64,000 nt of DNA from Bacteroidota bacterium (GTDB lineage Bacteria; Bacteroidota; Bacteroidia; UBA4408): assembly GCA_963169745.1 (NCBI GenBank), contig CAUJCU010000022.1:1-64000 (forward strand). The letters run 5' to 3'. The notes beneath the pieces are model-generated. The model saw nothing but the letters and a program-made list of their open reading frames with translations. It did not search any database and was not told the DNA's origin. Both the position numbers and the translations under genes were made by a program. Below, piece by piece: positions 45,326-52,931 of this stretch. The first letter of the stretch is position 1, and every line of letters starts with the position of its first letter.

Positions 45326-46441
45326 TTGAAGGCTAAAAATATATTGGTTAAGGCAAAGGATAAAGAAAAATTAAATCCTAAAAAAGTGGCTCCTGCAAAA
45401 AAGAAGAAAACGCCTACTTCTACAAAGAAAGTTGCTGCTAAAGCAGCACCTAAAGTAGTTACTAAAAAGGTTTCAAAAGCATCTCCAAAAGCTGTGGCTA
45501 AAACTGTTGTAAAACCTGCATCAAAAAGTGCAAAGCTGGTAAAGAAAGTTGCTGTCAAACAAAAAAATGTTGAAATAGGTAAAAAAACTCCAACTGTTTC
45601 TAAAACTACAACTCAAGCACCAGAGAGCAAGTCTAATATTGCAAAAACTGAGCCGGTAAAGAACAAATACACGGCACAGCCTACTCCTAGAAATAAAGTA
45701 AAAAGTGTTTTGGTTACCCAACCTAAACCCGAAGGAAATAAATCACCTTATTTTGATTTAGCAAAAAAGTGTGGTATCAAGATAGATTTCAGAGAGTTTA
45801 TACATGTGGAGGGTGTTCCAGCGAGTGAATTTAGACGTGACCGTATCAACATCTTAGATTACTCAGCTGTAATTTTTACCAGCAGAAATGCAGTTGATCA
45901 TTATTTTAGAATATGTCAGGAAATGCGCATTACTGTTCCCGAAAGCATGAAGTATTTTTGTATTACCGAATCAACAGCCTACTATCTACAAAAATATGTA
46001 ATATACAGAAAGCGAAAAATCTTTCACGGGAAACAAAGTTTTGCTGATATGATGGATGTGATAAAAAAGCACAAAGATGACAAGTACTTACTCCCTTGTA
46101 CCGATATCCATAACGTAGAGGGTTTGGAGCTTCTTGAAAAAGCTAAAATAAATCACTCCAAAGCTATTATTTACAAAACAGTTTGTAGTGACCTTAGTGA
46201 TTTGGCTAATGTAAATTATGATGTAATTGTATTTTTCAGCCCTTCAGGAATCAAGTCTTTATTTCAAAATTTTCCAAATTTTAAGCAAAACCTTACCCGT
46301 ATTTCTGCTTTTGGAGCCACAACAGCTAAAGCTGTAGAAGATGCTAATTTATATGTAGATATTAAAGCTCCAACCCCACAAGCACCGAGTATGATAATGG
46401 CTTTGGAACAGTATATTACAGCAGTTAATAAAGGGAAATAA
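45326..46441 (+). CDS. hemD: Uroporphyrinogen-III synthase with Lys/Ala-rich N-terminal tail
   Basis: The last 250 residues form a HemD domain that closes and inverts the hydroxymethylbilane ring in haem synthesis: SVLVTQPKPEGNKSPYFDLA, AVIFTSRNAVDHYF, YLLPCTDIHNVEGLELLEKA, VIVFFSPSGIKSLF, ISAFGATTAKAVEDA. Bacteroidota HemD proteins normally begin at that first segment. Here about 110 residues precede it, rich in Lys, Ala, Thr, Val and Pro (KKVAPAKKKKTPTSTKKVAA), like a histone H1 or AlgP tail. The start is TTG at 45326, preceded by the good ribosome-binding sequence GAAAGGAAAG. The tail may bind nucleic acid or polyanions. Confidence 0.85.
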   Translation: MKAKNILVKAKDKEKLNPKKVAPAKKKKTPTSTKKVAAKAAPKVVTKKVSKASPKAVAKTVVKPASKSAKLVKKVAVKQKNVEIGKKTPTVSKTTTQAPESKSNIAKTEPVKNKYTAQPTPRNKVKSVLVTQPKPEGNKSPYFDLAKKCGIKIDFREFIHVEGVPASEFRRDRINILDYSAVIFTSRNAVDHYFRICQEMRITVPESMKYFCITESTAYYLQKYVIYRKRKIFHGKQSFADMMDVIKKHKDDKYLLPCTDIHNVEGLELLEKAKINHSKAIIYKTVCSDLSDLANVNYDVIVFFSPSGIKSLFQNFPNFKQNLTRISAFGATTAKAVEDANLYVDIKAPTPQAPSMIMALEQYITAVNKGK

Positions 46442-48202: not shown

Positions 48203-48592
48203 TCAAAAATTAATGTTGTCGTGATTGTTCCGGCTAATCATCTTTGTAATAACTTTTTGAAATGCTCTGTAAATTATCATTTCTGTAACAACACGTACAT
48301 AACTTTTTTCTCTGTACTCCTGTAATTTTTTATGTAGTAATTTTTCACTGATATCTACTTTATACAAAACCCGAGCAAATCGTGATGGATTCTTTTGCAA
48401 TATTTCAAACAAAAAAGGCTCAATGAATTCAAACAATTGCTGATAAGCCCGGTCAGGGTCTCCTTCAAAGTGCAGTTCTTCTTCATCAATACCAGCATCT
48501 TTTTTTAGCTGGTTAAATGTTTCTGCTATTACAAGCAATCGCTTTTCATACGGTGTTTGCAATAATATCTTATGTGTTGCAGAATAGCTCAA
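48203..48592 (-). CDS. Conserved-looking protein of unknown function
   Basis: 129 aa, soluble and predicted mostly helical (LLVIAETFNQLKKDAG, AYQQLFEFIEPFLFEI, VTEMIIYRAFQKVITKM). I do not recognise a family. The start is TTG at 48592, 42 bp after the gldED stop on the same strand, so it is likely the last gene of the adhesin-gliding block. No signal peptide or membrane segment. Confidence 0.6.
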   Translation of the reverse strand: MSYSATHKILLQTPYEKRLLVIAETFNQLKKDAGIDEEELHFEGDPDRAYQQLFEFIEPFLFEILQKNPSRFARVLYKVDISEKLLHKKLQEYREKSYVRVVTEMIIYRAFQKVITKMISRNNHDNINF

Positions 48593-48634: not shown

Positions 48635-50575
48635 TTAATGATTCCAGCTAAAGGTTTCAATCATTCTATCCATATCTTGGTTTATAAAATTGAGAACAGG
48701 TGCAATGGAATCAGCATTGGGACTTGCACTAAAATATAAAGCACAGCGTACAAAATAACGAGTGCTGTCAGTCACATAAAACTGTGTTTGTGAGGCACTA
48801 TTGCCAGATAAGCTATATTTTAAACCATATACTTTTTTGTCTTGATAAAAAATAGGAAACTCTTCAATACCATCGGCTTTTACAGTATGTTTATAGGCTA
48901 ATGTTCGTGAATTGTTTAATTGATCAACCAAATCGTTATGATTCTGTATAGGATTAAAACTTAAATGGATGGTTGCATGGTATTGAGGATAATAAATATT
49001 ATACCAGCATGTTTCTTTTAGTTTACCCATATATGGTTTTACCTGAGCCTGTTGTGAGTATTCAAATGTGTATGGGCAAGCTTCTTTAAAAGATTGATAG
49101 GTGTGCATAGGCATGTCTATTCTAAAATACCCTCTTGGTTTTGGGGTAAACTCGTTCTGGCATGATTGAAGTGTGAATAGAAATGGTAAGCTAAGTAGTA
49201 TTAGTAACAAGGGTATTATTTTTCCAGACTCTTTAGGAGGAGTATTCGGGCTCTGATGAGAAATGGTTAGCTTAATTCTTTTTATTCTTCGTTTATCTAC
49301 CGACTCAATAGTAAACATATAATTCCCGAAAGAAATTTTTTCGTTTTTACTTGGGATTTTACCGCTTCTTTCAAGAATAAAACCGGCCAGAGTATCTGAT
49401 TCGCCTTTGTGTTCTTCAAACTCGCTACCGTCTATTTCTAATATTCGATATAAGTCGTTAAGTAAAATTTTTGCTTCAAAAATGTAATTTTGATTATCTA
49501 GTTTTGAATACACGAGCTCATCCTCATCAAACTCATCATTTATTTCGCCAATTATCTCTTCTATTACATCTTCAAGCGTAACTATTCCGCTAGTACCTCC
49601 ATATTCATCAACAGCAATAGCTAAGTGAATTTTCTTACTTTGAAATTCCTTCATTAAGTCATCAATTTTTTTGCTTTCGGGAACAAAGAAAGCGGGGCGA
49701 ATGATACTTTGCCATTTAAAATCACTCTCTTTATTGAGGTGCGCTATTAAATCTTTTATATACAAAACCCCCACAATGTTATCGAGCGAATCACGATAAA
49801 TTGGGACTCTAGAAAATCCATGTTTCAGAATAAGTTCAATTATTTCTTTAAAAGATGTACTTTCTTCAAAGGCCACTACATCAATACGCGCTTTCATAAT
49901 TTGGCTTACTTCGGTATTTCCGAACTCTACAATACCTTGTAGTATTTTTCGCTCTTCATCAGGAGTATTTTCTTTTGATGTTAATTCCAAAGCCTGCGAA
50001 AGCTGATCTACAGATAAATCGGGGGCTTTTGAGGTAATACGTTTATCAAATGCGTTAGCAATTAACACTAAAACATAAACAAATGGGGCCAATAGTTTTT
50101 GAATTATTTCAAATGCTGAAACGAGTCTTATAGCCAACTTTTCGGGTTTTTGTGAGGCATATATTTTGGGTATAACCTCTCCAACTAATAAAATAATAAA
50201 GGTAACAATTACTACTTCTATCAGAAAGCCCATAAAAGGGTTTGAACTAAAATTAAAAAGTTCATCAAACAATATCTCAGAAATTACAACAACTCCAATA
50301 TTTATCAAATTATGGCTCATAACAATTGTTGCAATCAACCTTTTAGGTTTGTCTAAAAGTTGAATCACTCGTGCCGCTTTTTTATCGGTTCCGGTTCTTA
50401 ATTGTTCAAAATGTACAGGGGTTAATGAAAAGAAAGCAACTTCAGCCGTAGCAATAATTGCCGAGAGTGTTAACAAAAGTCCAATAGTTAATAATTCAAC
50501 TACCGATTGTGTTCCAATACCATAAAAGATAAATCCAGTTACTGTGCCCCAAGGGCAACTGACCCAACCGTCCAA
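48635..50575 (-). CDS. gldE-gldD: GldE-GldD fusion: CNNM/CorC-type membrane protein joined to gliding lipoprotein
   Basis: One uninterrupted 646-codon frame contains two normally separate proteins. Residues 1-450 are GldE: DUF21/CNNM helices (LLTIGLLLTLSAIIATAEVA, residues 25-200), a CBS pair (about 215-340) and a CorC/HlyC transporter-associated domain ending RRIKRIKLTI. Residues 456-646 are a full GldD: hydrophobic LLLILLSLPFLFTLQS, a lipobox Cys472, then RGYFRIDMPMHTYQSF, as expected for mature GldD. Flavobacterium encodes gldE and gldD as adjacent genes after ssb, as here, and both are needed for gliding or T9SS function. A TTG at 49210 could restart GldD alone. GldE starts with TTG at 50575. 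Confidence 0.88.
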   Translation of the reverse strand: MDGWVSCPWGTVTGFIFYGIGTQSVVELLTIGLLLTLSAIIATAEVAFFSLTPVHFEQLRTGTDKKAARVIQLLDKPKRLIATIVMSHNLINIGVVVISEILFDELFNFSSNPFMGFLIEVVIVTFIILLVGEVIPKIYASQKPEKLAIRLVSAFEIIQKLLAPFVYVLVLIANAFDKRITSKAPDLSVDQLSQALELTSKENTPDEERKILQGIVEFGNTEVSQIMKARIDVVAFEESTSFKEIIELILKHGFSRVPIYRDSLDNIVGVLYIKDLIAHLNKESDFKWQSIIRPAFFVPESKKIDDLMKEFQSKKIHLAIAVDEYGGTSGIVTLEDVIEEIIGEINDEFDEDELVYSKLDNQNYIFEAKILLNDLYRILEIDGSEFEEHKGESDTLAGFILERSGKIPSKNEKISFGNYMFTIESVDKRRIKRIKLTISHQSPNTPPKESGKIIPLLLILLSLPFLFTLQSCQNEFTPKPRGYFRIDMPMHTYQSFKEACPYTFEYSQQAQVKPYMGKLKETCWYNIYYPQYHATIHLSFNPIQNHNDLVDQLNNSRTLAYKHTVKADGIEEFPIFYQDKKVYGLKYSLSGNSASQTQFYVTDSTRYFVRCALYFSASPNADSIAPVLNFINQDMDRMIETFSWNH

Positions 50576-50610: not shown

Positions 50611-51012
50611 TCAGAATGGTGTATCGGGTGCTGTGGCAGGAGTACCTGAAGTGTTCGGATTATTCCCTTCTTCTCGTTTATTAGACAAGATATGAATACT
50701 ATCGCCATATATTTCGGTAGTATATCGTTTGTTTTTATCTTTATCCTCCCAAGCTCTGGTTCTTAATTTACCTTCTATAAAAACGGTAGCTCCTTTTTTT
50801 AGGTATTTTTCAGCATATTCAGCTTGGCTTCTCCATAATACAATATTATGCCACTCTGTTTGCTCCATTCGGTTGCCATTTTTATCCTTATATACCTCTG
50901 TTGTAGCAAGTGGAAAAGTAGCTATTGTTGCTCCTCCTTCTAAGTGCCTTATTTCAGGGTCCTTACCTAAGTTACCTGCTAATATTACTTTGTTTACACC
51001 CAAAGATGCCAT
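50611..51012 (-). CDS. ssb: Single-stranded DNA-binding protein
   Basis: 133 aa with the OB-fold N-terminus (VNKVILAGNLGKDPEIRHLE), the segment EWHNIVLWRSQAEYAEKYLK, and a short disordered tail ending DTPF, close to the usual acidic DDIPF tip that recruits partner proteins. It binds ssDNA in replication and repair. The ATG lies 8 bp after the stop of the PorE-like gene and 35 bp before gldE. The ssb-gldE-gldD order is the one known from Flavobacterium. Confidence 0.94.
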   Translation of the reverse strand: MASLGVNKVILAGNLGKDPEIRHLEGGATIATFPLATTEVYKDKNGNRMEQTEWHNIVLWRSQAEYAEKYLKKGATVFIEGKLRTRAWEDKDKNKRYTTEIYGDSIHILSNKREEGNNPNTSGTPATAPDTPF

Positions 51013-51020
51013 GATGGTTT

Positions 51021-52931
51021 CTATTTATCAATTTCAATTACCTTAAACTCTGTTCTTCTGTTTGCCTGGTATTCTTCATCAGAACAAGGCACCCCATCTA
51101 CGCATTTATTAACTGGTTGGCTTTCGCCATAGCCTTTGCTTTTAATTCTGTTGGCTTTAATTCCTTTAGACACTAAATAGTTTTTGGCACTCTTTGCTCT
51201 CTTAAAGGACAATTCTTGATTATAAGCATCTGTTCCTCTTGAGTCCGTATGTGACCCTAGTTCAATGGTAATTTTTGGATTGTCTTTCAATTTCTTAACT
51301 ACGTTATTAAGTGGCTCTATGGCGTCTTGCCTAATATTCCACTTGTCATAATCATAAAAAATGGGTCTAACCCCATCTTTATCAGGAGCGTCAATTACAA
51401 TAGGTTGTCCTTTAACTAATTCTTCTAAAATAAAATCTTTGGTAATATCTCCTACTTGATTTACCGTACTAACATCTTCAGACTGGCTAAAGAAACCGTC
51501 TTTGGCCACTGTAATTTCAAAGTCTGTATTCGGTGCCAATAAATAACTATAGCTTCCATCATCTGCAGAGAAAATTGTATCTGTTGTATTTCTAGCCTTA
51601 TCCAAAATTTCAATACGTGCACCAGCAACAGGTTGATTATCTTTTTTGCTTAAAATTTTTCCTAAGATATTAACTTTAGATGCTTGTAAGATAAATTCAT
51701 AAATTTTATCAGCACCTTGTCTATTACTGCTTAAATATCCGGTTTTATTATCGGGATAAATCATAAAGCCAAAATCATCTCTGGCGCTGTTAATAGGGTA
51801 ATTCAAATTTTCAGGGGCTAAAAAAGAATTTCCCTGTTTGGTACTTCTAAAAATATCAAGTCCTCCTAAATTGGTATGTCCTGTTGAAGAAAAATATAGG
51901 TTTCCAAGGCTGTCCACAAAAGGATACATTTCATTTCCGGGTGTATTAATTGTTTCTCCTAAGTTTTTAGGTTGTGACCAATTTCCGTTTTCCCATTTGG
52001 TTTCATATAAATCTGTACCTCCTATACCTCCTGGCATGTCTGAAATAAAGTACATTGTTTTGCTGTCGGCAGATAAAGCAGGGTGCCCGGTTGAATATGC
52101 TTTATTATTATAGGGAAACTCTGCGCCCTTACCATAAACACCGTTTACAATAGTGTCTTTGCTTATTTTTAAGTTAATTACATTTTCAAGTAATTCTTCT
52201 TTTGACATACCATCGGTATTACTTGCAGTGTAATATACCGCATTCCCATCTTTAGTATAGGCAGCAGAAGCGGTATGCAGTTTGTTTTTATTGATGTTTC
52301 CACTAAGCTTTTCGGGATTGGAATATGAACCGTTTTTGTCTTTTTTAGTAAAATAGAGTTTATAATAGGCCTTTCCCGTTTGTGGCACTTTGTTCTTCCC
52401 TTTTCCATCCATATTCGCACTAATTACCAACCCGTCTTTGTATTGTACAGGCCCATAAAATTCGGTAACATTTCCAATTTTTGCATTCGTTACAGTATAT
52501 CTTGCAGTATCTTTCATAAACAAGCCTGTATTTTCGCATGAATTTAAAATGCTTTTAGCCAATTTATCTGATGGATTTGTTTTAAGATAAGCTTTCAAAT
52601 ACTCCGATGCATCGTTATACTTTTTGTTGGCAATAAGCATTTGTGCATAATAAAACTGGTCTATGGGCTCTGCATTTGTTTGGCTTACAACTTTAGCGTA
52701 TGCATCCAGCCCTTTTTTAACATCGTTGGTAAGGCGATAGGCATTAGCCAATTTTTTTTGGGCTACAATATTTGATTTTTTTGCTACTGCCTTTTCATAA
52801 TTTTTCACGGCCTTAACATATTGGAGTTGTTCCATTTTTTTATCGCCTAAACTCATGTACATTTTAGTACAACTGCTTAAGGCGAACATGGCAAACAAAA
52901 CTAAGCAAGAGGTGGTAATATTTTTCTTCAT
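51021..52931 (-). CDS. PorE-like OmpA-family lipoprotein
   Basis: 636 aa with a lipoprotein signal (TTSCLVLFAMFALSSC, Cys21). TPR-like helices (residues 30-125), PD40 propeller blades (about 140-410, with KTMYFISDMPGGIGGTDLYE), a carboxypeptidase-regulatory-like domain (KILSKKDNQPVAGARIEIL) and an OmpA peptidoglycan-binding domain (IELGSHTDSRGTDAYNQELS) follow. This is the PorE architecture and the second copy in the window. It lies directly after PorP/SprF and the giant adhesin, so it is likely the peptidoglycan-anchoring partner of that secretion or adhesion unit. Confidence 0.88.
   Translation of the reverse strand: MKKNITTSCLVLFAMFALSSCTKMYMSLGDKKMEQLQYVKAVKNYEKAVAKKSNIVAQKKLANAYRLTNDVKKGLDAYAKVVSQTNAEPIDQFYYAQMLIANKKYNDASEYLKAYLKTNPSDKLAKSILNSCENTGLFMKDTARYTVTNAKIGNVTEFYGPVQYKDGLVISANMDGKGKNKVPQTGKAYYKLYFTKKDKNGSYSNPEKLSGNINKNKLHTASAAYTKDGNAVYYTASNTDGMSKEELLENVINLKISKDTIVNGVYGKGAEFPYNNKAYSTGHPALSADSKTMYFISDMPGGIGGTDLYETKWENGNWSQPKNLGETINTPGNEMYPFVDSLGNLYFSSTGHTNLGGLDIFRSTKQGNSFLAPENLNYPINSARDDFGFMIYPDNKTGYLSSNRQGADKIYEFILQASKVNILGKILSKKDNQPVAGARIEILDKARNTTDTIFSADDGSYSYLLAPNTDFEITVAKDGFFSQSEDVSTVNQVGDITKDFILEELVKGQPIVIDAPDKDGVRPIFYDYDKWNIRQDAIEPLNNVVKKLKDNPKITIELGSHTDSRGTDAYNQELSFKRAKSAKNYLVSKGIKANRIKSKGYGESQPVNKCVDGVPCSDEEYQANRRTEFKVIEIDK

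Follow-up and report, generated by a model that had tools for sequence, protein, structure and literature searches.

In the window, that is, the whole stretch of 64,000 nucleotides that was analysed, gldE and gldD are fused into a single open reading frame, the product of which, judged from its sequence, is quite probably a polyprotein in which an internal lipoprotein signal would export GldD, and Lgt and LspA would lipidate and cut the chain at Cys472. The fusion is genuine, is conserved and has arisen convergently. An earlier note on this DNA had read the frame as GldE followed by a linker, a hydrophobic stretch, the lipobox LQSC (Cys472) and GldD, and its coordinates are borne out by Pfam and NCBIfam. 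The features of the locus are:

50611..51012, minus strand: ssb, the upstream neighbour in the order ssb-gldE-gldD (TIGR00621)
48635..50575, minus strand: GldE-GldD fusion ORF, 646 aa from a TTG start
49955..50479, minus strand: CNNM (DUF21) transmembrane domain of GldE, residues 33-207 (Pfam PF01595; hydrophobic segments; helices in the model)
49556..49909, minus strand: CBS pair of GldE, about residues 223-340, the end being approximate (Pfam PF00571, two stretches)
49262..49504, minus strand: CorC_HlyC domain of GldE, residues 358-438 (Pfam PF03471)
49220..49261, minus strand: linker of 14 residues, 439-452, SHQSPNTPPKESGK, within a low-confidence stretch of the model (440-485, pLDDT <50)
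49172..49219, minus strand: hydrophobic core of the putative internal signal, residues 453-468 (KD 2.1-2.7, as strong as in separate GldD signal peptides)
49208..49210, minus strand: in-frame TTG, the codon of Leu456, proposed as a restart in the earlier note; not conserved
49160..49171, minus strand: lipobox LQSC, residues 469-472, including Cys472; the Cys is invariant in 30/30 fused loci
48638..49162, minus strand: GldD lipoprotein domain, residues 472-646, with a predicted Mog1/PsbP-like fold (TIGR03512, PF25593; AF2 pLDDT 92; Foldseek/VIA)

The frame extends over 650 codons from stop to stop, uninterrupted by a stop or a break, and its Pfam domains occur in the order CNNM, two CBS, CorC_HlyC and GldD_lipo. 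Its N-terminal part matches the full GldE model of NCBIfam above the curated cut-off (TIGR03520; residues 32-438, 557 bits against 376, model positions 2-407 of 408), and its C-terminal part exceeds the curated cut-offs of both full GldD models (TIGR03512, residues 465-645, 225 bits against 120; PF25593, GldD_lipo of Pfam, 217 bits against 27). In this GldD, the lipobox Cys of LQSC follows a hydrophobic signal (hydrophobic peak 2.70), but the signal is internal, beginning at residue 453, and lacks an ATG start, whereas a signal at the protein's own N-terminus is usual in the family; this usual feature lies outside the cut-offs of the family models, and membership is assigned by score and lipobox. 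The apparent start of GldE is the TTG at 50575; this start region (TTG, Leu-Asp-Gly-Ser-Val-Ser) is conserved within the genus, and relatives retain the TTG-Asp context (LDGSVS/LDDS).

The locus shares its protein families, gene order, domains, lipobox and upstream ssb with Flavobacterium and most Bacteroidia, in which, however, gldE and gldD are separate, each gene has its own start and gldE its own stop, the two usually overlapping; here there is one frame and the GldD signal is internal. A single frame comprising an integral membrane protein, an internal signal and an exported protein has the layout of the cytochrome b/c1 polyprotein FbcH of Bradyrhizobium japonicum, a single gene product that reportedly consists of a membrane protein followed, after an internal signal, by a periplasmic protein and is cut in two. 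FbcH is said to differ in that signal peptidase I makes the cut, the second product is a haem protein and cleavage has been shown, whereas the fusion carries a lipobox for Lgt/LspA and its cleavage would be of the lipoprotein type. The magnesium transporters CorB/CNNM (PMC8242095) have the CNNM membrane domain, the CBS pair and the CorC domain in the same order but no C-terminal lipoprotein, and their likeness to GldE here is one of domain layout. No description of a GldE-GldD fusion or of a lipobox polyprotein was found in the open literature searched, subscription papers being outside that search, and this absence does not prove that the fusion is unreported.

PorE-like and PorP/SprF-family genes are located further upstream, beyond ssb. 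The gene at 51021-52931 (minus strand), which adjoins both a PorP/SprF-family gene and ssb-gldE-gldD, encodes a TPR/PD40/OmpA lipoprotein that scores 443 bits with the CHU_0125 OmpA family (cut-off 620) and 384 bits with PorE (cut-off 600). Directly downstream of the fusion, a 129-aa ORF at 48203-48592 (minus strand) has no match in Pfam or NCBIfam. Elsewhere in the window, the gene at 45326-46441 (plus strand), upstream of rnpA, encodes a uroporphyrinogen-III synthase-like protein with a Lys/Ala-rich N-terminal extension of ~150 residues.

The earlier note had proposed that related genomes be checked for the fusion, and had feared that all close relatives would carry separate genes, with an assembly error here; instead, the fusion recurs in the genus, in the family and in other families. 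Each of the three further species sampled in the genus carries it as a full-length, stop-free frame at 64-69% identity (4/4 with the window's own). Within the family, two other genera (G004 and G006) are fused and G005 has two separate ORFs; the fusion is also present in G010, of another family, and in G034, of a third, and most other relatives have two separate ORFs. Its distribution ranges from fixed to patchy, depending on the group: all six genomes of the genus of G034 are fused, as is G075, and the proportion is 8/11 in the family of G257, 3/8 among genomes having a GldD in the family of G114, 5/34 in the family of G312 and 2/7 in the family of G010, where the two are mutually identical in GldD. 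Class-wide, in a sample that over-represents the relatives of the window, approximately 25 of ~240 genomes with a listed frame length are fused among the matches listed, and the fused frame occurs in none of the 80 more distant genomes counted within those ~240. In total, 30 distinct fused loci are distributed over six families of the class. Wherever a per-genome tally of GldD is given for a fused genome, no GldD besides the fused copy was found, and a second, separate copy was looked for in the source genome and not found. The source genome is a draft of 24 contigs, in which an assembly error or a sequencing frameshift might be suspected, but such an origin is exceedingly improbable: the frame has no stop or break, both domains are intact, and the artefact was rejected because separately assembled genomes from the genus, the family and five further families carry the fusion as well.

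The 226 loci collected yielded 162 distinct gldE and gldD pairs, including the 30 fused ones, and gene trees were built on the two domains with the junction left out. At least 13 changes between the fused and separate states are needed on the gene tree, and well-supported branches alone force 9 (FastTree) or 11 (IQ-TREE) of them; these counts are undirected, and some changes may be fissions. In the genus of G010, one fused lineage is nested among lineages with separate genes and 80-90% GldD identity, and the fusion is therefore recent there. Among separate pairs, the GldD ATG precedes the end of the gldE stop codon in 96/127, of which 29 have the form ATGA; this overlap suggests that translational coupling may be the ancestral state, and the separate pairs are probably coupled. 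Because the separate genes mostly overlap, we infer from the junction alignments that a single indel can fuse them easily.

The possible readings of the junction differ in what they predict: internal initiation should keep a start codon, tethering should lose the lipobox, and processing at the lipobox should keep the lipobox while making the start dispensable. A lipobox Cys with Gly, Ala or Ser at -1 is found in 30/30 fused loci, and the hydrophobic peak is 2.53 in fused versus 2.54 in separate GldD. An ATG located at -32 to -14 from the Cys is present in 6/30 fused versus 122/132 separate loci (Fisher p 1.7e-15), and an ATG in the same window with a Lys/Arg-containing n-region, that is, a usable GldD start, in 2/30 versus 119/132. 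Because the loci are related, a sign test on independent pairs was added: among 11 phylogenetically independent pairs, loss of the ATG tracks fusion in about 10 and opposes it in about 0.1 (median p 0.002). With the lipobox Cys always kept and the GldD start codon mostly gone, the sequences strongly favour the option of internal-lipobox processing that the earlier note had put forward.

It is very unlikely that the gldE stop was merely lost and that most GldD still arises as a separate protein initiated at the TTG at 49210 or at another internal codon. The overlap and probable coupling of the separate genes would suit such initiation, as would the ATG, GTG or TTG of some kind that occurs in the start window of 21/30 fused loci and the ATG retained at -23 in G006, but the fall in plausible ATG codons, which tracks fusion in independent pairs, argues against it, as does the lack of any ATG, GTG or TTG from the end of CorC to position -12 in several loci (e.g., L002, L039, L127, L185 and L187). 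The restart at TTG 49210 suggested in the earlier note was rejected, since this codon aligns to Ala/Ser codons in the three sampled congeners and the resulting signal would have no positively charged n-region. Non-canonical or SD-independent internal starts would be compatible with the sequence. In the fused frame of L006 (G006), the plausible ATG at -23 is accompanied by a Lys-containing n-region (MGSKENGFLGTL...); this locus is possibly an intermediate between the separate and fused states, and the lineage may still make GldD separately.

Permanent tethering, in which the hydrophobic segment would be an additional transmembrane helix of GldE and GldD would stay attached, uncut, as a periplasmic membrane-anchored domain, is unlikely. 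The segment has the length and the hydrophobicity that a transmembrane helix requires, and recurrence of the fusion would fit a benefit from tethering; this option of the earlier note is still compatible with the data. However, a tether needs no lipobox and does not explain why the Cys with Gly, Ala or Ser at -1 is kept in every case across many origins, and the genes for LspA and Lgt are present. The dN/dS of the junction is 0.18-0.77 in the four fused pairs with unsaturated junction dS, versus 0.03-0.11 in the domains where dS is unsaturated. Such fast change is typical of signal peptides but could also be read as that of a loosely constrained spacer; the lipobox Cys never changes although the surrounding residues change fast.

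When modelled alone, GldD is predicted with high confidence (AF2 pLDDT 92) to adopt a Mog1/PsbP-like fold, matching PsbP/CyanoP in Foldseek and Mog1p, LpqN and DcrB in VIA-align (Z 8-11), and a PDB sequence search with GldD returned no significant relative. Identity to these proteins is roughly 4-12%; the shared fold shows no shared function, and the predicted fold says little about the function of GldD. In the AF2 model of the whole fusion, the GldE domains and the GldD domain are parted by the low-confidence stretch at 440-485 (pLDDT <50). Because the pTM of this model is 0.32 and only three alignment rows cover GldD, no contact between GldE and GldD is claimed.

In the model that we infer for topology, lipidation, cleavage, the fate of the signal helix and a role in the type IX secretion/gliding apparatus, translation of the polyprotein would have a single start, at gldE, and GldE would be inserted via its CNNM membrane domain while the CBS and CorC domains remain cytoplasmic. 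GldD would then cross the inner membrane by means of the stretch 453-468, acting as an internal lipoprotein signal in N-in/C-out orientation, after which Lgt would lipidate Cys472 and LspA would cut before it. Cleavage would yield GldE, its C-terminus extended by the used signal helix, and a normal GldD anchored by its lipid, in a 1:1 ratio. Because the CBS and CorC domains are cytosolic in CorB/CNNM proteins (PMC8242095), the hydrophobic stretch would run from inside to outside, which is the orientation of a lipoprotein signal; in 23/30 fused loci the flank ahead of the hydrophobic core has a more positive net charge than the flank that follows the Cys, which agrees with such a predicted orientation. 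Both enzymes are encoded in the genome (LspA at G000:C2:283519-284067 and Lgt at G000:C24, about 64555-65634). It is likely that the fusions represent a repeatedly evolved polyprotein in which a CNNM protein of the inner membrane is separated from a lipoprotein of type IX secretion and gliding by Lgt and LspA rather than by a dedicated protease.

Colonies of a gldD mutant of Flavobacterium psychrophilum no longer spread, many T9SS cargo proteins are missing from its secreted proteins, and GldJ is not detected at its surface (PMC5682007). GldE has been reported, by similarity, to be missing in some gliding flavobacteria (PMC5714932), and GldE and GldD are therefore not strictly obligate partners. 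The fusion shows that the two proteins tolerate synthesis as a single polypeptide in a fixed 1:1 ratio. The proposal of the earlier note that they act as one unit is suggested by the fusion but unproven, because a single indel can fuse the mostly overlapping genes, and it goes too far, because some genomes (e.g., G009 and G028) encode GldD at a distance from GldE and cleavage would part the products again.

If the proposed model is true, LspA would process polyproteins and accept a multi-pass membrane protein of ~450 residues ahead of its signal. Cleavage of the fusion by LspA would make lipoprotein maturation a way of resolving polyproteins and would mean that the signal of a lipoprotein can lie away from the N-terminus, in which case predictors that check only N-termini may miss such lipoproteins. 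Repeated fusion also sets the ratio of GldE to GldD and provides a genetic handle on whether these two proteins cooperate.
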